Shown in pieces: positions 13,252 through 25,971 of a stretch of DNA of 64,000 nt. This DNA comes from Methylocella silvestris (GTDB taxonomy: Bacteria; Pseudomonadota; Alphaproteobacteria; Rhizobiales; Beijerinckiaceae), in NCBI RefSeq assembly GCF_002891535.1, contig NZ_PDZR01000001.1, positions 372,001 to 436,000 of the forward strand. The letters are read 5' to 3'. The number at the start of each line of letters is the position of its first letter. Positions within the stretch are counted from its first letter, which is position 1. A model generated the notes under the pieces. The model was given only the letters and a program-made list of their open reading frames with translations. It did no database searches and was not told the origin of the DNA. A program made the translations under genes and the position numbers.

Positions 13252-15537
13252 CTAAGCCCTGACTCGGGTCTTTTCTGGATCGTAGTGTGGGAATCGCGCC
13301 ACAGTCGCGCTGATGCGTTTTTGCCGCCCGTCCAGCTTGCCAATCTCGAGGCTCGCGCCGATCGAGGCGCAGGCCGCGTCGAGGCGGGCGAGGGCGATCG
13401 TGCGGCCGAGGATGGGTGAGCGCGTCGCGCTGGTAACGACTCCGACCCGCGCGCGGCCGGCAAAGACCGGATCGCCATGACCAACCGCTTCATTGCCGGC
13501 GAGGTCGAGCCCGACGAGCTGGCGAATCGGATGGGCGCGGCGGCGCGCCAGCGCCTCCGATCCGACATAAGGGTCGGCCTTTTCGGCAGGGACGGCAAAG
13601 CCGATGCCGGCCTCGAAGGGATCGGTCTCGTCGCAGAACTCGTGAAGGGCGAAGATGAGGCCGGCCTCGATCCGCACCATGTCGAGCGCGGCGAAACCGA
13701 AGGGAGCGATCCCATAGGGCTTCCCCGCCGCCATAAGGGCGTCCCAGACCGCCGCGGCGGAGCCGGGGTGCAGCCAGATCTCATAACCAAGCTCGCCCGT
13801 GTAGCCGGTGCGGGACACGAGCACAGGCAGGCCTGCGATCTTGCCGACGGTAAAGCGGAACCATTTCAATTCGTCGGCCGAGGCGCGATGCGGCGGCGTG
13901 ACCAATATTTCGCGCAGGATGTCGCGCGATTTCGGGCCTTGCAGGGCGACATTGTGCAGCTGGTCGGTCGAGGATCTGACAAAGGCTCTCAAGCCCTGAC
14001 GCGCCGCGAGCTCGCGCAGAAAGACGCCGCAATAATCATCGCCGCAGACAAGCCTGAAATTATTGTCGCCGAGCCGGAACACTGTTCCGTCATCCAGCAT
14101 GCCGCCATGTTCGTGGCAGATCGCTGTGTAGACGATCTGGCCGACCGCAAGCTTGCGGATGTTGCGCGTGACGGCGCCCTGCAACAGAATTTCAGCGTCC
14201 GGCCCGGTGATTTCAAACTTTCGCAGCGCCGACAGATCGATGAGAACGGCCCGCTCGCGGCAGGCCCAATATTCGGCGATGGGGCCCTCGGATGCGTAGC
14301 ATTGCGGCGTCCAGAAGCCGCGATAGTCGATGAAGGAGCGCGTCAACGCGGAAGTCCTTGAATGGAAACTGGATTCGCGCGTAAGTCTGGGGGCGGCGTC
14401 AGCGGTCATGCGATGAGCGATCCCTTTGGAGAAGCTGGCTGAAGCGTCATAGACGCGCACATGTATGTCGGTCGGCATCCAGCCATTGGCCGGATCGATG
14501 TCGTCGGTGCAGGATGAGGACGCGCAGACGAGATCGGTCAGGGCGCGCAGCAACACATAGTCGCCCGGCCGCGACCAAGGCTCGTCAAGGCCGATCGTGT
14601 TGTCTTCAGCGACGAAGGTGTTGTAGAAAAAATTGATGGCGGGCCAGCCGCGCCGCGGCGCGACGCTGAAGGGCGCAAGCGCGGCGTTGAAATTATCGGT
14701 GCAATTGGCGTGGCCGGGATAGCCCATGTCCTCGTAATATTTTGCGTTGCAGGCGAGCATGAATGTGTCGTGCCGCCCGACGGTGTCGCGCACGATCTCA
14801 AAGAGCGGGTTCATGTCCTCGTCGAAATATTTCGCGTGGAGGCCGGGGCCTGGCGTCGCCGAACCCATCAGCGTGCGCGTCACGGTCGGATCGACGCCGA
14901 GTTCGCGGCCTTCAGCCAGGGCCCTGGCGTCGAAGGCGAGGAGGTCGGAACATTGGCGCCCATCGACGTCGATGATCTGGATATAATCGCCGGCGCTGAC
15001 GCGATAGGCGCGCGCGGTCGCGGCGTCGATCCTGAGATCGAGCTTTACCGGCGCGAGAGGAGGCGGCGCCGCGCCGCCCGTCGGCCGGCTTGAGAAAATA
15101 TCGAGGCGCAGCTCCGTCGGCGGGTTCTGCGCGTCAGGGGCCATCGGCTCGCCGGGCGCCATCAGAAGGCAGCGCATATCGGCCTCGGCCTTGAAGCGGA
15201 AGGTTTCGCCCGGCTCCGCGGTGGCATGAAAAAGCGGGGTCGCCTGAAATCGTTCGGCTCCCTGCCGCGCGGCGAGGAAGGCGCCGGCGAGATCGCCAGC
15301 GACGGCGCGGACGCCAGCCTCGTCGAGCGTCGCCGAGGCCGGCGTGAGCTGGAGGGGATCGCTGCAGGCGGTCAGCAATTCGCCGGCCTGGCCCCCCTCG
15401 AGATTTGTAATGATCGCTTCGTCGCCGGAGGAAAGGTCGAACTGAACCCCGCTGCCGCCCGCCGCCGAAAGGGTCTGGACGCGCCGGGGCGGGTCCAGGT
15501 CGAACGACCCTTTCGGGCCCGCCGCGTTAACATTCAT
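13252..15537 (-). CDS. tdm: Trimethylamine N-oxide demethylase (Tdm)
   Basis: Tdm, described from Methylocella silvestris, converts TMAO to dimethylamine and formaldehyde. The 761-aa two-domain layout matches. Residues 1-370 are a DUF1989 domain with the metal-binding Cys segments (FMLACNAKYYEDMGYPGHANCTDNFN, VCASSSCTDDIDP). Residues about 395-761 are a GcvT/tetrahydrofolate-binding domain (REAALID-like WACRERAVLIDLSALRKFEITGPDA, LQGPKSRDIL, GELGYEIW). The fusion is diagnostic because GcvT proteins alone are about 370 aa. It is directly downstream of tmm, whose product makes its substrate. ATG 15537 lies behind AAGGCG. It acts in the cytoplasm. Confidence 0.9.
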   Translation of the reverse strand: MNVNAAGPKGSFDLDPPRRVQTLSAAGGSGVQFDLSSGDEAIITNLEGGQAGELLTACSDPLQLTPASATLDEAGVRAVAGDLAGAFLAARQGAERFQATPLFHATAEPGETFRFKAEADMRCLLMAPGEPMAPDAQNPPTELRLDIFSSRPTGGAAPPPLAPVKLDLRIDAATARAYRVSAGDYIQIIDVDGRQCSDLLAFDARALAEGRELGVDPTVTRTLMGSATPGPGLHAKYFDEDMNPLFEIVRDTVGRHDTFMLACNAKYYEDMGYPGHANCTDNFNAALAPFSVAPRRGWPAINFFYNTFVAEDNTIGLDEPWSRPGDYVLLRALTDLVCASSSCTDDIDPANGWMPTDIHVRVYDASASFSKGIAHRMTADAAPRLTRESSFHSRTSALTRSFIDYRGFWTPQCYASEGPIAEYWACRERAVLIDLSALRKFEITGPDAEILLQGAVTRNIRKLAVGQIVYTAICHEHGGMLDDGTVFRLGDNNFRLVCGDDYCGVFLRELAARQGLRAFVRSSTDQLHNVALQGPKSRDILREILVTPPHRASADELKWFRFTVGKIAGLPVLVSRTGYTGELGYEIWLHPGSAAAVWDALMAAGKPYGIAPFGFAALDMVRIEAGLIFALHEFCDETDPFEAGIGFAVPAEKADPYVGSEALARRRAHPIRQLVGLDLAGNEAVGHGDPVFAGRARVGVVTSATRSPILGRTIALARLDAACASIGASLEIGKLDGRQKRISATVARFPHYDPEKTRVRA

Positions 15538-15588: not shown

Positions 15589-16944
15589 CTATTCCGCGGC
15601 GGCTTCCGGACGGTTCTGGAAGGCGTCGAAGGAATCGTCGAGCGCCTCCATCCATTTTGTGTGATGCGGCGGGGCCTTGTTGCCGGTCATGATCGAGACG
15701 TAGGAATTATCGCGATATCCCATGATGCTCTTGACCTTGTCCTCCTCCCACTCCTTGAACAGAGCGGCGACTTTATCGAGATCGAACATCGGGTAATCGG
15801 TGGCGGGAATGAGGTCGCGCATATATTCCGTCTGGAAATCGATGCCGTCGAACGCTGTTTCGAGCTTTTCCTCAATCGCGCGCCAATGGTCGATATCCGC
15901 CTGCCGCTCCGCTGCGGGGGGCAGTTTGATGCGTCCGAGGATCACGTCGCGGGCGTACCAGGCCTGCGCGTCGAACATGTTGAAAGTAAAATACTGGTCC
16001 TGCATGCCAAGATAGATGAGCTTCGGATTGTCCTGCCAGAAAATGCCCTTGTAGAGCCCGGCCGGATAGAGCCGGTTGTTTGTCCTGAGGCGCAGATTGT
16101 CGGCGAGGAAGGGGAAGTGATGCAGGTAGCCGGTGCACAGAAGAACGGCGTCGACCACGGCTTCGCTGCCGTCCTTGAAATGGGCGGTCTTGCCGGTGAG
16201 TTTCGTCAGCAGCGGCTTTACCGTAAAACACTCCGGCCAGTCGAAATTCAGCGGCTTTGACCGGTAGCTGAAGGTGATCGATTTCGCGCCATATTTATAG
16301 CACTGGCTGGCGATGTCCTCGGCGGAATAGCTGCTGCCGACGACAAGAAGGTTCTTGCCGACGAATTCATTGGCGTCGCGAAAATCATGCGCGTGCAGCA
16401 CGCGGCCGGGAAAGACTTCAATGCCCGGAAAATGCGGCACGTTCGGGGTCGAGAAATGACCGCTGGCGACGACGACATAATCGAAGGTTTCCGAGTAGAG
16501 CTCGTCCTTCTTCAGATCCTTGACCGTCACCGTGAACAGTTGGGTCTTTTCATCGAAATCGATCCAGCGAACAACCGTGCTGAAGCGCACGAATTTGCGC
16601 ACGTCGCTTTTTTCAACGCGGCCCATGATGTAGTCATGCAGCACCGCGCGCGGGGGATAGGAAGGGATCGGGCGCCCGAAATGCTCCTCGAAGGAATAGT
16701 CGGCGAATTCGAGACATTCCTTCGGGCCGTTCGACCACAAATAACGATACATGCTGCCGTGGACGGGCTCGCCAAATTCGTCGACCCCGGTGCGCCATGT
16801 GTAGTTCCACAGGCCGCCCCAGTCCGACTGCTTTTCGAAGCAGACCAGTTCGGGAATTGCGGCGCCTTTTTTGCCGGCGGATTGGAAAGCGCGCAGCTGC
16901 GCGAGGCCGCTCGGCCCTGCGCCGATAATTGCAACACGAGTCAT
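15589..16944 (-). CDS. tmm: Trimethylamine monooxygenase (flavin-containing)
   Basis: Tmm oxidises trimethylamine to TMAO with NADPH, FAD and O2, the first step of aerobic TMA use; it was first identified in Methylocella silvestris. The 451-aa protein has the FAD motif [14 protein letters not shown] at the N-terminus, the FMO fingerprint region [13 protein letters not shown] near residue 175, and the NADPH-binding [12 protein letters not shown] near 205. The length and the [27 protein letters not shown] segment fit bacterial FMO/Tmm rather than Baeyer-Villiger enzymes. It sits between a GcvT-like gene and tdm on the same strand with short gaps (41 and 51 bases), so they are probably cotranscribed. 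Confidence 0.93.
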
Positions 16945-16985: not shown

Positions 16986-18122
16986 TCAGCGCGGAGCGCG
17001 CTCTTCGAGCGGGTGCGTGCGCAGACGCAGCGGATCGTAGAACGGCGTCTTGACGACGCGAGCCTTGAAGCTGCCAGCTTCGCCGCGAACTTCAACCTCC
17101 GTTCCAAACGCCTTGAATTCGGGCTTTATATGGACCAGCGCCAGCGAGCGCATCAGATGGCGGCTGTAGGTTGTCGAATTGACGATGCCAATTTCATGGC
17201 CGTCCTTGAAGATCCTGGCGCCGGGCTCGATCGCCTCGTGATGGTCGATCTCAATGCCGGCCTGCGCGGTCCGCACTTCGCTGCGGCGGCGCTCTAGCGC
17301 CTGCTTGCCGCGAAACGCGGGTTTGGAAAGGTCGACAGACCAGTCGACGCCCGCTTCCCATGGCGTGGTGTCGCCTTCCGGCATGTCGAAGGGGAAGAAC
17401 AAGAGCGCCCCTTCGACGCGGACGATGTCGAGGCAGGACCAGGAGACGGCGGTTGCGCCGAACGGCTTGCCGGCTTCGAGGATCTGATCCCACAGGAACA
17501 CGGCGTCGGCGGCTTTGCAGAAGACCTCATAGCCGCGCTCTGCCGAATAGCCGCCGCGGGCGATCGATACCTCGCGGCCAAACAGGCTCGTGCGCTGATG
17601 TTCGAAGTAGCGCAGATCGGCAAGGTTCATTGGCGTATGCGGCGCCAGGATTTCAAGCGCCTTCGGCCCCTGCAGCGAGAGAATATGTGTGTCATTATCC
17701 TTGCGGAATTGCACGTTGCGGCCTTCCGCGAAGGCGGGCAGCACGTCTTCGAGAGCGCCGCCGCCATGCGAGATGCGGTAGGCGTTCGGGCCGTCGCAAT
17801 AGATCAGCACGTCGTCGATCAGCGAGCCTTCGTCGTCGACGATGTTGCTGATCGAGGATTGGCCGGGCTTGATCCTGGCGATGTCGGAGGTCAGCATCGC
17901 GTTCAGCGCGGCGAGCGCGTCCGCGCCCGAAACGTCAATGAGGCGCAGCGCGCTGACGTCGAACAGGCCGGCGCTGTTGCGCACGGTTTGCGTCTCGACA
18001 TAGGGATCGGCCGCATAGTTCTGCGGGATCGGCATGTCGTTCCATGAGGCTTCGAACTGCGTTCCAAGCGCTCGGTGGCGATCGTTCAAGATGGATTGGC
18101 GGGAGTAGACGTGAGTGTTCAT
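16986..18122 (-). CDS. GcvT/DmdA-family aminomethyltransferase-like protein
   Basis: This stand-alone tetrahydrofolate-binding protein (378 aa) has the GcvT layout: YVETQTVRNSAGLFDVSALRLIDVSGADALAALNAML at the N-terminus, LQGPKALEIL in the middle, RGGYSAERGYEVFC, then CLDIVRVEGALLFFPFDMP. It probably moves a methyl or formaldehyde-level carbon to THF. Glycine cleavage T-protein itself is unlikely because no gcvH/gcvP are nearby. DMSP demethylase-like (DmdA) or methylamine-linked activity fits better. ATG 18122 has AAGG upstream. It precedes tmm by 41 bases. The exact substrate is not known. Confidence 0.8.
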   Translation of the reverse strand: MNTHVYSRQSILNDRHRALGTQFEASWNDMPIPQNYAADPYVETQTVRNSAGLFDVSALRLIDVSGADALAALNAMLTSDIARIKPGQSSISNIVDDEGSLIDDVLIYCDGPNAYRISHGGGALEDVLPAFAEGRNVQFRKDNDTHILSLQGPKALEILAPHTPMNLADLRYFEHQRTSLFGREVSIARGGYSAERGYEVFCKAADAVFLWDQILEAGKPFGATAVSWSCLDIVRVEGALLFFPFDMPEGDTTPWEAGVDWSVDLSKPAFRGKQALERRRSEVRTAQAGIEIDHHEAIEPGARIFKDGHEIGIVNSTTYSRHLMRSLALVHIKPEFKAFGTEVEVRGEAGSFKARVVKTPFYDPLRLRTHPLEERAPR

Positions 18123-18227
18123 TGCAGTGCCTTCTTCGTGGCGTTCCGTCCGCGTCCGGAGAGATCGTTGCGTCCGCTCTCCATTTGTGCAGGACAATGG
18201 CGCCTAGCATAGTAAGCGTCAAGAAAC

Positions 18228-18241
18228 TTTCTTCTAAAGAA
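18228..18241. promoter_or_regulatory. Inverted repeat TTCTT-N3-AAGAA, copy 1 (before the GcvT-like gene)
   Basis: TTTCTTCTAAAGAA holds a perfect TTCTT/AAGAA inverted repeat with spacer CTA, 107 bases upstream of the GcvT-like start. Related copies lie at 20128 and 20218. Shared control of the methylated-amine genes is inferred. Confidence 0.6.
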
Positions 18242-18260
18242 TATTTTGTGGCATTCAGAG

Positions 18261-18285
18261 GCCCCGGGAGGGAGCCTCCCGGGGC
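18261..18285 (-). terminator. Strong hairpin after the permease gene
   Basis: GCCCCGGGAGG-GAG-CCTCCCGGGGC is a perfect 11-bp stem seven bases past the permease stop. On the minus strand no T-run follows directly, so it may reduce rather than abolish read-through, or stabilise the permease mRNA end. Confidence 0.65.
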
Positions 18286-18291
18286 TTAAAT

Positions 18292-20007
18292 TCAGAGCTG
18301 GAAGAACCAGTTTGACAGCAACAAAACGATCAGGCCGCCGGCCAGCGTGAGATAAGGCAGCGCTCCGGCCCTTTTCACGGTGGCGGTTCCATCGCCGATC
18401 TGAAGATCCTCAAAGGTCTCATGCGGGAACTTGCCGCCGTCCTGAATGTAATGCCGATAGCAGAACACCGGAACGATCATGGCGGCGGTGATCAGGCCGG
18501 CCCAGAGCGCGATCGGATTCCACACCTTGGCGCCCGCCCCCATGAAGACGACGTTGACGAAGGCGAGGATCGCGGCCAGCCCGATGATCCAGTTCGGAGC
18601 CTTGTAGGGACGCGGCACATGGCCCGAATCGATGCGGTGGAGCCAGCCGGAGTTGAGGTTGAGGAAGTTGAAGATGATGTAGCCGCAATTCGACACCGCG
18701 AGGATGAAGAAGAAGCTGGTGGCGTCGGCGCAGGCGATGGCGAGAAGGATGAGGTTGAAGGTGAGATCGGTCCACATGGCGCGGGTCGGCGCGCCATGTT
18801 CGTTGACATGGCTGAGGTAGCGCGGCAGCCAGCCGTCGACCGAGCCCTGATAGAGCGTGCGTGACGATCCCGCCATGGCGGTCATGATGGAGAGGATGAG
18901 CGCCAGAATCATCAGCATCACAAGGATGCTTTCGACGAATTTCCCGCCGCCGACCATATGCGCCATGGCCTGCGCGACGCCGGAGCCGTCAACGATTGAG
19001 GGATCGAGCATGCCGGTCAGGCCAAGCACGCCCTGGAAGGTGAACGGGACCAGGATGAACAGGCCCATGCAGAGCAGCCCGGAGTAGAAAATGGCCTTGA
19101 ACGTATCCGTGCCGGGATTACGGAATTCGCTGGTGTAGCAGACGGCGGTCTCAAAACCGTAGGTCGACCATGCCGCGATGAACATGCCGCCAAGGACGAG
19201 CGTCCAGCCGGCGATGTTCCAGCTGCCGGGGTCTGGCGCAGACGCTGCGGCGAGAGGAACGAGAGGCGAGAAATTGCTCCAGTCCACCTTGCCGGTCAGC
19301 AGGGGAACAAGGCCGACGATGACCATCGGAATGATGACCGTGAGGCCGATCCATTTCTGGACATTCGCGGTGCCGAGAATGCCGCGATGCTGGATCGCGA
19401 AGACCAGAAGCATCAGGACGGCGCCGACGAAGAAGGAAGCGTTGAAGGAGAAGCTGACCGGGCCGATGCTATGCGTGAAGGCGGTCCACTCCCGGATTGC
19501 CGGGGTCAGCGCCGCGACGGCCGCCGCTGTCTTGTCCGCGTCGGAACCCGCAATGCTTGCGCCATGGGCGGCGATCCATTGCGCCACTTCAGGGCCTGCG
19601 GCGAGCGGAACGGGGGCGAGCGCATTCAGGATATACGCCGCCGCGATCGAACAGCCGAGCGAGAGGACCGGGCTCCAGGCGAACCAGTTGCACCACACCG
19701 AAAGCGGGGCGACGAGCTTGGCGTAGCGCACCCAGGCCGCTGCGCCATAGATCGAGGCGCCGCCCGATTTGTTCGGGAACAAACCCGCGATCTCGGCATA
19801 AGTAAAGGACTGCAGAAACCCAAGAATGATCGAAACGGTCCAGATCAGAAAGGCCAGCTTTCCGGTCGTTCCCGCGATGCCGCCAATAGAAAACAGAACA
19901 AGCGCCGGAACGCCGCTCGCGACCCAAAAGGCGCCGCGCCAATCGATCGTTCGATGAAGCGTTCCTTCCGTCTCAATTCCTGCCTTTGCCTCGGCTATGC
20001 TTGTCAT
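18292..20007 (-). CDS. APC-superfamily permease, candidate amine transporter
   Basis: The 571-aa protein has about 12 hydrophobic helices and the APC N-terminal pattern TLHRTIDWRGAFWVASGVPALVLFSIGGIAGTTGK, followed by FTYAEIAGLFPNKSGGASIYG. It is longer than typical amino-acid permeases (450-500 aa), with an extra loop around IAAHGASIAGSDADKTAAAVAAL. Family members import amino acids, polyamines and amines by proton symport. The setting, first on the minus strand and divergent from the dimethylamine monooxygenase operon, suggests uptake of TMA, TMAO, DMA or a related amine (inference). ATG 20007 has GGAGGG upstream. Confidence 0.82.
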   Translation of the reverse strand: MTSIAEAKAGIETEGTLHRTIDWRGAFWVASGVPALVLFSIGGIAGTTGKLAFLIWTVSIILGFLQSFTYAEIAGLFPNKSGGASIYGAAAWVRYAKLVAPLSVWCNWFAWSPVLSLGCSIAAAYILNALAPVPLAAGPEVAQWIAAHGASIAGSDADKTAAAVAALTPAIREWTAFTHSIGPVSFSFNASFFVGAVLMLLVFAIQHRGILGTANVQKWIGLTVIIPMVIVGLVPLLTGKVDWSNFSPLVPLAAASAPDPGSWNIAGWTLVLGGMFIAAWSTYGFETAVCYTSEFRNPGTDTFKAIFYSGLLCMGLFILVPFTFQGVLGLTGMLDPSIVDGSGVAQAMAHMVGGGKFVESILVMLMILALILSIMTAMAGSSRTLYQGSVDGWLPRYLSHVNEHGAPTRAMWTDLTFNLILLAIACADATSFFFILAVSNCGYIIFNFLNLNSGWLHRIDSGHVPRPYKAPNWIIGLAAILAFVNVVFMGAGAKVWNPIALWAGLITAAMIVPVFCYRHYIQDGGKFPHETFEDLQIGDGTATVKRAGALPYLTLAGGLIVLLLSNWFFQL

Positions 20008-20127
20008 GGCGCTTTCCCTCCTTGCGGAATTCACGGGAACGTTGTGTGAAATAAGAAATCGCGGCCCATGGGATGAGCGCGGCGAATGTCCAGACGAAAC
20101 ATCGACGCGAATTAAAAGTCAAAAGAT

Positions 20128-20141
20128 TTTCTTTTAAAGAA
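20128..20141. promoter_or_regulatory. Inverted repeat TTCTT-N3-AAGAA, copy 2 (before the permease)
   Basis: TTTCTTTTAAAGAA contains the perfect arms TTCTT and AAGAA with spacer TTA, 121 bases upstream of the permease ATG and in the gap shared with the divergent dmm operon. Confidence 0.6.
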
Positions 20142-20217
20142 ACTCCTTTCGGCAAAATGCCTGTGAGATAGGCGGAAAAGGCGGATTTAGGGCAGCCGAA
20201 GCCCCAACATTGATATG

Positions 20218-20231
20218 TTTCTTCTTACGAA
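20218..20231. promoter_or_regulatory. Inverted repeat TTCTT-N3-AAGAA, copy 3 (before dmm)
   Basis: TTTCTTCTTACGAA matches copies 1 and 2 with one arm mismatch (ACGAA). It ends six bases before the -35 box of the dmm promoter, the usual place for an activator. Confidence 0.55.
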
Positions 20232-20237
20232 ATAATA

Positions 20238-20265
20238 TTGACAAGCATCGTCGGGCGCATAGGAT
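20238..20265 (+). promoter_or_regulatory. Probable sigma-70-type promoter of the dmm operon
   Basis: TTGACA (20238-20243) and TAGGAT (20260-20265) are 16 bases apart. The leader to the ATG at 20406 is about 135 bases. Confidence 0.5.
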
Positions 20266-20405
20266 GACCACGCTCGACTCCAGAGACTGGCGGCGCGGGC
20301 GATCGCGACGCCATGGTCTTGCCGGCGGGCGTCAAACCATCCGATCTTGCGTCGCGGCGCAAAATTCAGTTCCCGGCGACCGCGACGGCGGTCAAGGAGT
20401 TCGAT

Positions 20406-20993
20406 ATGCCCGTTTCCGGAATTGTCAGCCGGCCGACCTATGAGGCTCTGGCGATCGATCCCGCCGGCCGGCGTCATCTTTTTGTCGCCGATCATGCCTT
20501 CGAGCCGGACCCGGGCGTCTTCGCGGCGTTGCCCTCCGAGGCGCCTGTCGAGCTTTGGCGCGCGCTGGCCGAGGCTCGCGTCGGCTCCGGCGCCGGTCCC
20601 CGGGCCAACGCCCTCGCGCGAGATTTTCGTTCGACGACGCAACTTCTTGACGCGCTTGCCTATCGTCTGGAACGCGAGCGCGTCGGTCTGAGGCTTTATG
20701 CCGTCGGCCTCGAATCCTTCGTCTGGGACGTCGCCCGGCTCGCGCGTGGACTTGGCATGGACAGCAGCGAATATCGGCTGTCGCATGTCGGCTCAAACCG
20801 CCGCCGCGTCTATTGCGTTCACTGCCGCGCCATCACCGAGAATGTTGCGACCAATGTCGTCGCCTGCAGCGGCTGCGGCGCAAATCTGTTTGTTCGCGAT
20901 CATTTCTCGCGCCGGCTCGCCGCTTTCATGGGATTCCAGATCGATGCGGAAGCCCCCGGCGAGGTTCCCCCGATCGAAGAGGCCTTTCCATGA
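20406..20993 (+). CDS. dmmA: Dimethylamine monooxygenase subunit, DmmA family
   Basis: The 195-aa protein resembles the small DmmA-type subunit of haem-dependent dimethylamine monooxygenase. The middle has long helices (RSTTQLLDALAYRLERERVGLRLYAVGLESFVWDVARLAR). The C-terminus is a four-Cys knuckle, YCVHCRAI and ACSGCGANL, followed by VRDHFSRRLAAFMGFQ, as in this family. The start at ATG 20406 is chosen for its AAGGAG six bases upstream; ATG 20313 lacks a ribosome site. It overlaps the reductase gene by four bases (ATGA), indicating coupled translation. Naming of Dmm subunits differs between papers, so the letter is less certain than the family. Confidence 0.75.
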   Translation: MPVSGIVSRPTYEALAIDPAGRRHLFVADHAFEPDPGVFAALPSEAPVELWRALAEARVGSGAGPRANALARDFRSTTQLLDALAYRLERERVGLRLYAVGLESFVWDVARLARGLGMDSSEYRLSHVGSNRRRVYCVHCRAITENVATNVVACSGCGANLFVRDHFSRRLAAFMGFQIDAEAPGEVPPIEEAFP

Positions 20994-21943
20994 GCGGCGC
21001 CGACCATCTTCCCCTGCGCGTGCGCGAAACCGAGATGATTTCGCCGCTGCTGAAGCGCTTCGTCTTCGAGGCGGCTGATGGCGGCGAGCTGCCGCCGGCC
21101 GGCGCCGGCGCCCATCTGCGCCTGACCCTTGAGGGGGAGGGACGGCGCTGGAAGAACGCCTATTCGATTGTTTCCGCTCCCGCCGACCGCAGCCATCTTT
21201 CGATCATCGTGCGCCGGGTCTCGCCCTCGCGCGGCGGCTCAGCCTTTCTGCACGAGGCTGTCCACCCCGGCGCGGTCGTCGCCGCCCATGAGCCGGGGAA
21301 TCTCTTTCCGATGTCGCACATCGCCCGCAAGCATCTGATGGTCAGCGGCGGCATCGGGCTGACGCCCTTCCTGTCCTATCTCGAAGCCATTGAAGCGACG
21401 GGCGCCGACTTCGAATTGCGGCATTTCTGCCGCGACGAGGAAATTCCGATCTTCGAGAGGATCCTTTCGGGGTTCGACGCAGGCAGGATCACGATCCATC
21501 CGGCCTCCGCGCCCTTCGATCTGTCGCAGGCGCTCGCCTCGCAGCCGCTCGGAACGCATCTTTATACATGCGGGCCGGAAGCGCTGATGGGGCTGGTGCT
21601 CGCGGCTGCGCGCGATCATGGCTGGCCGGCCTCAAAGCTGCATTCGGAATCCTTCGGCGGCGCTCACGCCGGCGGCCTCCCCTTCACCGCCATCTTGAAG
21701 AAATCGGGGCTGAAGGTCGCCGTGCGCGACGACCAGACGCTTCTGGAGGCGATCGAGGAAGCGGGACTCGAACCCGACTGCCTCTGCCGCGGCGGCGCCT
21801 GCGGCGTCTGCCTGACGAGCGTGCTCGAGGGCGAGCCGGATCACCGCGATCATTTTCTGGAGGGCGCTGAAAGCGCGTCCAATCGCTCGATCATGATCTG
21901 CGTGTCGCGGGCGAAGACGCAAAACATCGTGCTCGACTTGTAG
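20990..21943 (+). CDS. Dimethylamine monooxygenase reductase subunit (flavin, NAD(P)H, 2Fe-2S)
   Basis: The 317-aa phthalate-dioxygenase-reductase/VanB-type protein passes electrons from NAD(P)H to the haem subunit. The flavin domain has KNAYSIVSAPADRSHLSI, the nucleotide domain has MVSGGIGLTPFLSYLEA and HLYTCGPEALM, and the C-terminal ferredoxin domain binds [2Fe-2S] with Cys in LCRGGACGVCLTSVLEG and a later Cys in MICVSRAKT. It starts at ATG 20990, overlapping dmmA; an open frame further upstream is only the dmmA gene read in another frame. It is the middle gene of the operon. Confidence 0.85.
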   Translation: MSGADHLPLRVRETEMISPLLKRFVFEAADGGELPPAGAGAHLRLTLEGEGRRWKNAYSIVSAPADRSHLSIIVRRVSPSRGGSAFLHEAVHPGAVVAAHEPGNLFPMSHIARKHLMVSGGIGLTPFLSYLEAIEATGADFELRHFCRDEEIPIFERILSGFDAGRITIHPASAPFDLSQALASQPLGTHLYTCGPEALMGLVLAAARDHGWPASKLHSESFGGAHAGGLPFTAILKKSGLKVAVRDDQTLLEAIEEAGLEPDCLCRGGACGVCLTSVLEGEPDHRDHFLEGAESASNRSIMICVSRAKTQNIVLDL

Positions 21944-22029: not shown

Positions 22030-23085
22030 ATGAACCAGCGATTCAAGCCGGCGGAAACGTTCCGGCGCGACTTCACCTTCCGCAACAGCGACGAGGCGGT
22101 GTTGCGTTTCCCGTTTCCGTTCCCGGAAGATTCCTACATGTATTCGGTCAACATCGAGCCGCATACGCCGGGCGGCCCGACCGCGGCTTTTCAGGCCGCT
22201 TTCGACGTCGATGAGCATTATGTCGCCGAATGCGCGGAGCGGGCGATTGTGCTCGAGGAAGACCCCGGCCGCTGCAAGGTGCTGCCGCATATGATGGCGG
22301 CGCAGTGGGACACGCTTGAATTGATCATGGAGAGTTTTGCGCGCGACTATCCGCAGGATTTTTCCCTCACAAAAGAGGGAACGAACTGGGTCTGGGAGAA
22401 TCGTCCGCTGGGGATCAAACAGTCCTTTGTGTTTGGCGACGCCAAAACCCTGCCATGTGAGCCGTTCGAATATATCACGCGTCAGGCGCAGGGCGATTTT
22501 ACCTTGCAGGATCAGCGCGAAGACAATCTCTTTGTCGATGGCGGCATGGTCACGACGCAGGCCGACTGGTCGCTCGAATTCAACATTGGCATGACCTTCC
22601 ATGAATGGCATGGGCCGGTGCCGCTCGCCCATCAGCTTGGCGTGTTCGATCGCGCGCTGAAGTTTCTGATGAGACTGCAATATGGGCAGCCGGTGCGGCG
22701 GCTCAACTGGACGATGACGATCAATCCGCGGCTCGATACGAGCCCTGAGAACTATCCGCTGTGGGGAACGGACCGCACCACCGTCACCCCGGAGAATGTC
22801 GCCGAAAAGGTGTTTTTGCGCGTTGAATTGCAGACGCTGTTCCGCCTGCCGCGCTCCAATGCGATTTTGTTCGGCATCCGCTGCTATCTGCTCAGCGTCG
22901 CCGATATTGCGCGCGTTGAGAAATGGGGCAAGCGGCTTCACCGCGTGTTGCTCGATCTGCCGACTGAACTGCAAGACTATAAGGGATTGACCCGCTACCG
23001 GCAGACGGTTGTCGATTATCTGGCGCCCCTTGACGATGGCGCGCCGCTGCCGAGCGGGATCGCGCCCGGCCAGACAGCGTTATGA
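22030..23085 (+). CDS. Haem-dependent oxidative N-demethylase, PAS-fold catalytic subunit (DUF3445)
   Basis: The 351-aa protein belongs to the DUF3445/HODM alpha family, in which a PAS-like domain holds haem and oxidatively removes a methyl group from dimethylamine, giving methylamine and formaldehyde. Segments seen include LRFPFPFPEDSYMYSVNIEPH, DWSLEFNIGMTFHEWHGPVP, LNWTMTINPRLDTSPENYPLWG, VFLRVELQTLFRLPRSNAILFGIRCYLL and a C-terminal YKGL. ATG 22030 is preceded by GGAGG. It follows the reductase gene by 86 bases and completes the three-subunit enzyme. Some publications name this subunit differently, so no letter is given. Confidence 0.85.
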   Translation: MNQRFKPAETFRRDFTFRNSDEAVLRFPFPFPEDSYMYSVNIEPHTPGGPTAAFQAAFDVDEHYVAECAERAIVLEEDPGRCKVLPHMMAAQWDTLELIMESFARDYPQDFSLTKEGTNWVWENRPLGIKQSFVFGDAKTLPCEPFEYITRQAQGDFTLQDQREDNLFVDGGMVTTQADWSLEFNIGMTFHEWHGPVPLAHQLGVFDRALKFLMRLQYGQPVRRLNWTMTINPRLDTSPENYPLWGTDRTTVTPENVAEKVFLRVELQTLFRLPRSNAILFGIRCYLLSVADIARVEKWGKRLHRVLLDLPTELQDYKGLTRYRQTVVDYLAPLDDGAPLPSGIAPGQTAL

Positions 23086-23228: not shown

Positions 23229-24077
23229 ATGGTTGACAAAACGATGTTTGGCCTGCCGGTCGAGCCAATCACGCGGCCGGTGCACACAACTTCCTATGCG
23301 ACCGCTGCCGGCGTTTTGATCGGTTATCCCGTCTTCCGCGATTGGCGCCGCCTGTACGATCCGTACAAAATGAAGAGCGAGCCGGCCAACCGGGAAAAAT
23401 TCGCCGAAGTGAAAGACGCTCACGAGCGCTCCGTGACGCGGCAGCTGGATCTCATACATCACCACGCCACGGGCAGGGCCGTCCTCGGCCAGATGAAAGC
23501 GAAGTCGCCTTCGGTGACAATTCTCCCCTATGTCTTTCAGGACATGCCTTGGGATTTTGACGAAATCGCGGTGGAGGATTTTAAGAGCGAGCGCAAGGCG
23601 ACCATGAAGGGGCTCGCCTATGCAACGGACGATGACGGCGACCTCTTGATCGGCGAGGGGATCGGCAGCAATGCGCTGATTTACTACGCCACGACCCGCG
23701 TCACGTCGAAGGAAACCGCCGACCAGATCCTGCTGCACGAACTTCTTCACGCCTCGCGCGATATCCAGGGGGTGAACAGCCTCGTTCGCCTCGACGGAGG
23801 CTACAAGAATTTTGAAGAATTTTACGCGCAGGTTGTCGAAAATATCTACCGATCCGAAGACCATAAGAGGCCGGTTGATTACCACGGACATTATATCGAC
23901 TCGGCGACGTTCCTGGATATGAAACTCAGCACGTCGCCTCGGCTCCTGCTTGGCCTCCTGCGGAAGACGCAACCGACGCTTTTTGCCGCGCTCGCCCATG
24001 TGAAGGCGAGTTTCAACCCGATTGCGCAGGTGGACGCGGAAGAGAAGGCGTTAATCGCGAAAATCGAACGCGGGTAG
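23229..24077 (+). CDS. HExxH-motif protein, putative zinc metallopeptidase
   Basis: The 282-aa product carries [14 protein letters not shown] near residue 178, a classic zincin HExxH helix; a downstream acidic ligand may lie in [19 protein letters not shown]. There is no signal peptide. The pattern recalls the M91-like/effector-type peptidase families, but I cannot place it further. It starts at ATG 23229 behind GGAGGGG. It follows the dmm operon by 143 bases on the same strand, with no terminator seen, but a functional link is doubtful. Confidence 0.6.
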
Positions 24078-25026: not shown

Positions 25027-25971
25027 ATGAGCGATCAACGTGCGTGGGAGATGCGGGTCTTTCTTCAGGTCGTCGCCGCCGGCAGTTTCAGCGCCGCCGC
25101 GCGAATCGTCGGCATGACGCCCTCATCGACAGCCAAGCTGATCAGTCGGATCGAGACTCGGCTCGCCGCGCGGCTGATCGAACGCTCGACTCGTTCGTTG
25201 CGGCTGACCTCCGAAGGGGAGCTTTATCGCGAACGCGCGGAGGCGATCCTTGGCGATCTCGATGCGCTCGACGCGGAGGTTGTCGGCGAGGCGCGCGCGC
25301 CGACCGGGGTAATCCGGATCAATGTCTCGGTTCCCTTCGGCCAGCACTGCCTGATGCCGCAACTGCCGGCGTTCGCGCGCGAATTTCCGAAGATTCGCCT
25401 CGACCTTACGCTGACGGACGACGTCGTCGATCTCTATGCGACCGGCGCCGACATAGCGTTCCGCATCGGACAATTGGCGGATTCAGAGCTATTGGCGATT
25501 CGGCTGGGGGAGGCGCGCCGCCGGGTCGTCGCCTCAAAAACCTATCTTGAGGAATATGGAATCCCGCGCACCGTTGCCGATCTCGATCGCCATAAATGTC
25601 TCGGTTTCAATTTTCGCCGGGCCGCGGCGGTCTGGCCGCTGCAAGCCGGCGGCCGGTTAACCGAGCGCGAGGCGCAGGGCGCAATCACCGCCAATAATGG
25701 CGAGACTCTGCGTTGCCTGGCGACCCTCGGGCTCGGCCTTGCGCGGCTCGCCGAATTCCACATCAAGGAGGATCTCGAGGCCGGACGTCTCGTCACGGTC
25801 CTCGATGACACGCTCGTCGATAGCGAGGCGGTCCACGCCCTCTACATGGGCCGCGAGCGCGCCCCCCGCCGCGTGCGCGCGTTCCTTGATTTCATCACGC
25901 CGCGCCTGCGCGAGTTGTTGCGCGAGCCCTTAACCGCCGGGACGGAGCGCGACTCGATCAGCCGAACTTGA
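25027..25971 (+). CDS. LysR-family transcriptional regulator
   Basis: The 314-aa protein has the winged HTH of the family at residues 5-65 ([53 protein letters not shown]) and a type-2 periplasmic-binding-like effector domain ([38 protein letters not shown]). Such regulators control a divergent gene in response to a small molecule; the divergent SDR is the likely target. Its 3' end overlaps fixX by 14 bases in convergent orientation. Confidence 0.92.

Follow-up and report, generated by a model that had tools for sequence, protein, structure and literature searches.

The locus and its three promoters

We analysed a window of 64,000 nucleotides from Methylocella silvestris (contig NZ_PDZR01000001.1), in which three transcription units for the use of methylated amines lie close together: a gcvT-like/tmm/tdm string, a trimethylamine N-oxide (TMAO) permease gene and a dmm operon. 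Each of them is preceded by the inverted repeat TTCTT-N3-AAGAA; the copies at 18229-18241 and 20129-20141 match it fully, and the copy at 20219-20231 deviates from it by one base. The original prediction had taken this repeat for the operator of a shared regulator of trimethylamine (TMA), TMAO and dimethylamine (DMA) use. The two perfect copies and the single-mismatch copy were confirmed; the sites were the same ones, and only their starts had been placed one base early by including the preceding T. Read with transcription, all three sites conform to TTCTT-N3-A(A/C)GAAA-N5-TTGAC, and TTGAC stands exactly 19 nt after the first T of the site at all three promoters. The position of the dmm site just ahead of a -35 box was thus borne out, and likewise TTGAC was found at both other promoters (Table 1).

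As evidence, the bare motif is weak within the window. Four matches with at most one mismatch were observed, compared with 1.24 expected, and 5 of 100 shuffles reached four. Because of these weak statistics, the -35 spacing and other genomes were used as tests. When the three promoter regions were shuffled 20,000 times with dinucleotides preserved, a single spaced promoter arose in one shuffle, and two or three arose in none. With the -35 spacing, the evidence for the motif is therefore strong.

Table 1. Putative operator sites and the genes behind them in the window.
Feature	Positions	Strand	Details
Site 1 and -35	18219..18241	-	TTCTTTAGAAGAAAGTTTCTTGA(CG); TTGACG 18217-18222; precedes gcvT-like/tmm/tdm
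Site 2 and -35	20119..20141	-	TTCTTTAAAAGAAAATCTTTTGA(CT); TTGACT 20117-20122; precedes TMAO permease; perfect 6-3-6 palindrome 20128-20142
Site 3 and -35	20219..20241	+	TTCTTCTTACGAAATAATATTGA(CA); TTGACA 20238-20243; -10-like TAGGAT 20260-20265; precedes dmm operon
GcvT-like aminomethyltransferase, first gene behind site 1	16989..18122	-	Pfam PF01571/PF08669
tmm, trimethylamine monooxygenase	15592..16944	-	NCBIfam NF058570, above cut-off
tdm (presumed from family knowledge), TMAO demethylase (DUF1989 and GCV_T)	13255..15537	-	Pfam PF09347 and PF01571
TMAO permease, gene behind site 2	18295..20007	-	NCBIfam NF053774, above cut-off
dmmA-like subunit, first gene behind site 3	20313..20990	+	Pfam PF22289/PF22290
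dmm reductase subunit (FAD, 2Fe-2S)	20990..21940	+	Pfam PF00111
dmm haem-dependent N-demethylase alpha-like subunit	22030..23082	+	Pfam PF11927

The gene that follows the dmm genes (23229-24074, + strand) had only a weak, sub-threshold match to Peptidase_M91. About 1 kb beyond it lies a LysR gene (25027-25971, + strand), the only regulator among the ten window proteins that were scanned for domains. LysR boxes have the form T-N11-A, into which the 13-bp dyad of the sites would fit. In addition, it is the nearest regulator gene found, and in three genomes from a single family (L250, L253 and L256) a protein 46% identical to it is encoded next to tmm. However, no homologue was present in the 22-kb M. 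tundrae locus that bears the site, and the short-chain dehydrogenase gene from which the LysR gene diverges is a likelier target. Control of the cluster by this protein is hardly credible.

Sites elsewhere in the genome

Searched through all 4.28 Mb of the genome, the 14-mer TTTCTTYTWAMGAA matches exactly at the three window sites and nowhere else. The spaced pattern TTCTTNNNARGAAANNNNNTTGA had 12 matches at up to two mismatches, compared with one for the reversed pattern. With its -35 spacing, the motif is thus not scattered at random through the genome, a point on which the original prediction had asked to be checked. The six spaced matches with at most one mismatch comprise the three window sites, two sites before amide operons on contig C14 and one on contig C1. 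The palindrome TTTCTTNNNAAGAAA occurs at 13 places at up to one mismatch, compared with four for the control. Its three perfect copies precede the permease gene, mgsA of the methylamine (N-methylglutamate) operon on contig C4, and an ABC-transporter/dimethylformamidase-like operon on C14. Two window sites and the second C14 site are among the ten one-mismatch palindromes. The other seven have no evident link to the regulon: five lie inside open reading frame (ORF) calls, one lies between convergent gene ends, and one is 34 nt before a gene that reads as molybdenum-storage-like.

It is barely conceivable that the motif is a chance product or an A/T-rich promoter element. The bare motif is indeed only mildly above expectation in the window and, searched loosely, in the genome, but the spaced motif with its controls and the conservation in relatives, described below, argue against such an origin.

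The two C14 operons encode urea/amide-type binding proteins and DMFA2_C proteins (PF20254, 1.6e-85 and 2.3e-87). Dimethylformamide, the named substrate of the dimethylformamidase family, would give dimethylamine. The C14 cluster (L066-L068) comprises these two dimethylformamidase-like/ABC-transporter operons, a response regulator, a hybrid kinase, a further binding protein and two urease gene sets, in which one alpha subunit was confirmed and the other genes were named by reading. Much of it is also present in M. tundrae (L126). The response regulator, which is of the NarL type and lies with the hybrid kinase beside the second amide operon (C14:34330), was our first candidate for the shared regulator. 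Its gene diverges from one of the sites, and a LuxR-family protein activates the dimethylformamidase genes in Paracoccus (PMC4543880; this and the other papers are cited from the parts available to us). It was dropped because a close match was found only in M. tundrae among eight other genomes: the orthologue there is 73% identical, whereas in the other seven genomes with the site the best matches reach 35-37% identity and have other neighbours. It is improbable that this protein is the regulator.

The XRE-cupin candidate

A better candidate is an XRE-cupin protein with an HTH_3 domain (PF01381, 1.1e-12) and a Cupin_2 domain (PF07883, 4.3e-10). Its gene is on another contig than the window (G000:C12:20632-21276). 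No XRE-cupin homologue was found in the window, in agreement with the original prediction that no regulator gene adjoins the sites. The C12 protein is 87% identical to the XRE-cupin of M. tundrae. In that species a site and the XRE-cupin gene lie side by side at a contig end, which shares 127 nt with the contig of mgsA; the three are therefore neighbours. In A. gelatini the site lies between the XRE-cupin gene and mgsA. The palindrome was also present in 19 of 21 mgsA loci that had been retrieved as regulator loci, whereas at the regulator gene of the window's own genome no site was found. At the end of contig C68 of M. tundrae (L174), an mgsA start with a one-mismatch palindrome upstream suggests a second mgs copy that was collapsed in the assembly.

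The regulator was present in all nine genomes examined. It is encoded inside seven of the eight Tdm loci that bear the site (61-74% identity), whereas none of the other 49 Tdm loci encodes a protein of more than 60% identity (E <= 1e-15). Eleven of these 49, all Actinobacterial by title, have a homologue of 35-45% identity (L036, L037, L039, L042-L046, L054, L055 and L058).

In a tree of the homologues, the window genome's own regulator grouped with that of M. tundrae (100/99), and with the tmm-linked copies of Ancylobacter and Chthonobacter at 94/91. Each of six Ancylobacter genomes (G002-G006 and G008) has an XRE-cupin copy in the tmm locus and a second copy at another place, and the two fall into separate clades; in five of the six, mgs or mgd genes lie no more than about 12 kb from the second copy. 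H154, E158 and H192 (H-x3-E ... H) were invariant in 17 of 17 aligned homologues, which is compatible with a metal or ligand site in the cupin domain. For the Chthonobacter homologue, structure prediction (mean pLDDT 80.6, pTM 0.53) gave an HTH domain (helices 28-91) and, behind it, the beta barrel of a cupin. Ranked by E-value, the top PDB matches of this model were 1y9q, an HTH_3-cupin regulator (TM 0.39-0.46), and HppE, an HTH-cupin epoxidase (TM about 0.6).

PuuR of E. coli controls a gamma-glutamyl amine pathway, which can be likened to gmaS here. Among the NCBIfam models, that of PuuR (NF007408) scored highest with the regulators of M. tundrae and A. gelatini. The scores, 51 and 43 bits, were far below the 211-bit cut-off, and an identity of these two proteins with PuuR was rejected.

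Conservation of the site in relatives

The spaced site, with at most two mismatches, was found in 8 of 57 Tdm loci, with 18 matches compared with two for the reversed control. The eight loci belong to Methylocella tundrae, six Ancylobacter and Chthonobacter. TTGAC is at 19 nt in 14 of the 18 matches; of the remaining four, three read the same palindromes in reverse, and the fourth, from Chthonobacter, has TTTAC instead. In M. tundrae the gene faced is that of the permease. All six Ancylobacter have the sites facing tmm-tdm and gcvT; in Chthonobacter gcvT is faced, and the site there lies inside the 5′ end of the gcvT ORF call. Conservation before the orthologous genes, on which the original prediction had depended, thus held for permease, tmm and gcvT with the 19-nt spacing kept, but did not cover dmm. 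In M. tundrae, permease, gcvT, tmm, tdm and dmm form one co-directional string behind a single site.

One Ancylobacter match (L092) falls within an ORF and was attributed to chance. In Ancylobacter sp. Lp-2 (L124:9325) and A. sonchi (L101), a gene for an amide/urea-type binding protein has a weaker site before it, again with TTGAC at 19 nt. An acetamidase/formamidase gene further downstream in Lp-2 hints at an amide link there.

We also surveyed 297 genomes of the order for the regulator (E <= 1e-60), mgsA (E <= 1e-75) and tmm (E <= 1e-120), scoring at most 8-10 candidates per genome. The regulator was found in 104 genomes and mgsA in 98; 96 had both, eight had only the regulator and two had only mgsA (Fisher P = 1.6e-65, with kinship ignored). 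The two genes were on the same contig in 87 of the 96 genomes, within 12 kb in 83 and within 500 bp in 52; in the window's genome they were unlinked. Besides its own locus, the best 29 regulator loci were examined, and 21 of them show an mgsA gene. The palindrome (at most two mismatches) was present upstream of mgsA in 19 of the 21 (shuffle mean 0.19), and TTGAC was 29-31 nt from its first base in 18, in 15 of them at exactly 30 nt (shuffle mean 0). Upstream of mgsA in L205-L233, a second TTTC-like element recurs between palindrome and -35 box; this could be either another half-site or an A/T-rich promoter element.

The third gene, tmm, was found in 57 genomes, 52 of which also have the regulator. 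Thirty tmm loci (the window's own and 29 others) were examined over 400 nt upstream. A site with TTGAC at 19 nt was present in 8 of the 29 and at another distance in none (shuffle mean 0). In six genomes of the survey, the regulator gene faces tmm within 400 bp.

A putative regulon for methylated amines and amides

We propose that TTTCYT-N3-ARGAAA is the operator of a dimeric XRE-cupin regulator with an N-terminal HTH_3 and a C-terminal Cupin_2 domain, which in this genome would be the C12 protein. The sites, their spacing, their conservation and the linkage of the regulator gene with its targets can be read directly from the genomes compared, and binding is predicted from them. The regulon would follow the descent from trimethylamine, beginning with the uptake and oxidation of TMA and TMAO (permease and gcvT-tmm-tdm) and passing through dimethylamine (dmm) to methylamine (mgs/gmaS/mgd). 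It would further take in the two amide/dimethylformamidase-like operons for uptake and hydrolysis. The idea of one shared regulator was supported by the spaced motif and its conservation, and a candidate can now be named in the XRE-cupin encoded elsewhere in the genome. The proposed range of TMA, TMAO and DMA also stood up, but it was too narrow, and the mgs and amide operons have been added to it. It seems probable to us that the XRE-cupin protein is the shared regulator of these operons and acts through the palindrome in the way explained.

Several observations, in addition to the weak bare motif in the window, weigh against this explanation or limit the evidence for it. In the whole genome, TTTCTTYTWAMGAA did no better than its control at up to one mismatch (8 matches, compared with 6 for the reversed pattern). 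The sixth spaced match, C1:3172, is unexplained, and its neighbours look like polysaccharide genes. At both amide sites the 19-nt position is occupied by TTTA, not TTGAC, which occurs at 40 and -20; in the amide operons of M. tundrae it occurs at 42 and -19 with degenerate arms. The C12 regulator gene adjoins an acetate-permease-like gene (named by reading) and no target gene, and no site was found at it. The dmm site is the weakest copy, and comparison with M. tundrae gives no check on it, as dmm there sits downstream in one string with permease-gcvT-tmm-tdm.

Beyond this genome, 49 of the 57 Tdm loci had no spaced site. Perfect 6-3-6 palindromes outside ORFs were searched in 10 of the 11 Actinobacterial loci with a homologue, and none was common to them. 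In the whole genomes of the eight relatives, the loosened spaced pattern gave 22 matches compared with 7 for the control, and the bare palindrome was at 25 places compared with 11. Single matches outside the Tdm loci therefore mean little. Among the mgsA upstream regions, 9 of 21 also matched the reversed-arm control, probably because of the second TTTC element near the -35 box; as this control was unclean, shuffles were used. The eight tmm matches stem from two families, seven of them from one, and the left arms of several are degenerate; they are therefore not independent. The other 21 of the 29 tmm upstream regions had no site, and in several of them tmm follows another gene. No clear site was seen in L255, the sole one examined of the six genomes in which the regulator gene faces tmm.

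Promoter geometry and the sign of control

The distance from site to TTGAC is 19 nt at the window promoters and before tmm, gcvT and permease of relatives. It is 29-31 nt before mgs in three Ancylobacter, as in the 18 order-wide mgsA loci, and 40 nt at the second amide operon here (42 nt in M. tundrae, with a degenerate arm). The values 19, 30 and 40 nt are helical steps, which suggests activation: steps of 10-11 bp would keep a protein on one face of the helix, where contact with RNA polymerase, and so activation, is expected. We therefore propose that at most promoters the regulator, bound upstream of the -35 box on one helix face, most likely contacts RNA polymerase and activates. It would do so when the cupin senses a methylated amine or its glutamyl derivative; this effector is guessed from the linked genes. 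The original prediction had suggested activation at dmm; judged from geometry alone, it is plausible at all three window promoters.

At other promoters the site is placed differently. Before mgs in this genome, M. tundrae and Chthonobacter, it overlaps the -10 box of a TTGCTG/TTGTGT-N17-TAATTT/TAGTTT promoter. At the first amide operon it covers the -10 box of TTGACA-N17-TTATAA, and in M. tundrae that of a similar promoter. Such positions suggest repression there, and at the own mgs promoter and this amide operon the regulator would most likely repress.

The main rival to the proposed activation is that the XRE-cupin binds the palindrome but only represses. Bound 5 bp from the -35 box, it would block the polymerase until an inducer releases it. 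Those XRE-cupins of Pseudomonas aeruginosa whose regulons have been determined are reported to act only as inhibitors (PMC7901475), which weighs in the same direction as the sites over the -10 box, and at the 19-nt spacing the footprint could reach the -35 box. However, in 18 of 21 mgsA regions (29-31 nt) and before the second amide operon (40 nt) the site stands clear of the core promoter, at distances that differ from 19 nt by helical steps. Pure repression thus seems possible but rather unlikely. A dual regulator appears to be the simplest account of the site positions. The broadest form of our proposal is that the XRE-cupin, an activator and, where the site lies over the -10 box, a repressor, is the conserved master regulator of methylated-amine use in much of the order. 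Its regulon would extend from TMA by way of DMA and methylamine to amides of the formamide type, and its promoters would be built on helical steps of 19/30/40 nt. For this we see about equal reason for belief and for doubt.

Comparison with known systems

We searched the literature for this regulator or its operator and found no description. An unnamed XRE gene is marked in such clusters in the part of PMC7574528 available to us. In a study of 223 XRE motif clusters, neither arm of the palindrome appears in the available main text, the motif table being in the supplement (PMC12565409). As it occurs so closely together with the N-methylglutamate pathway, the regulator is a marker for the use of methylamine.

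For the aerobic use of TMA, a master regulator was not reported until 2026, in a marine bacterium and from another protein family (PMC13390433). In Ruegeria pomeroyi, TmaR/TmoR is similar to the present case in that one master regulator serves tmm, tdm, dmm, gmaS-mgs and mgd. The proteins differ, TmaR being of the AraC type with a C-terminal DNA-binding domain and TmoR of the GntR type, whereas the C12 protein combines HTH_3 and cupin. No operator motif is given for TmaR/TmoR in the main text of PMC13390433, where 'motif', 'binding site' and 'palindrom' are absent. The C12 protein itself is not TmaR, as it belongs to a different fold family. A separate TmaR-like AraC/GlxA activator might act here, since in R. 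pomeroyi the genes tdm, dmm, gmaS-mgs and mgd are all under TmaR control. We consider this very improbable: the best match was 31% identical here, 30% in M. tundrae and up to 41% in Ancylobacter, the query being a stand-in, the GlxA gene beside mgd on Paracoccus pAMI6, which was chosen by position. In addition, no such gene was seen near this genome's mgs/mgd operon, in the region that was inspected. It appears that another lineage uses an unrelated regulator for methylated amines.

DmfR of Paracoccus aminophilus also controls dimethylformamidase genes, but as an activator of the LuxR family (PMC4543880), whereas the amide operons here are preceded by the palindrome that we assign to the XRE-cupin protein. 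On plasmid pAMI6 of this species, two tmm transcripts rose about 27-fold under methylotrophic conditions (PMC4543880). We found two homologues of the C12 protein on pAMI6 (56% and 53%), annotated as XRE or helix-turn-helix, and a GlxA-type gene beside mgd. Palindromes precede mgdA, mgsA and a permease gene there, none with TTGAC at the usual distance, and the second tmm is preceded by a site with three mismatches and TTGAC at 19 nt. XRE-cupin and GlxA-type regulators may both act in the Paracoccus group.

A close parallel is with the XRE-cupins of Pseudomonas aeruginosa (PauR, PsdR, ErfA and others), which have the same domain order and bind palindromic operators as dimers, as is predicted here (PMC7901475). 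They too have metabolic targets near the regulator gene, and PauR likewise has many scattered ones. The targets themselves differ, being methylated amines and amides here. The Pseudomonas inhibitors bind mostly in the core promoter, whereas most sites described here are upstream of the -35 box at 19, 30 or 40 nt (PMC7901475). This geometry questions the view of XRE-cupins as repressors only, and if our explanation is true, an activating or dual XRE-cupin would be new.

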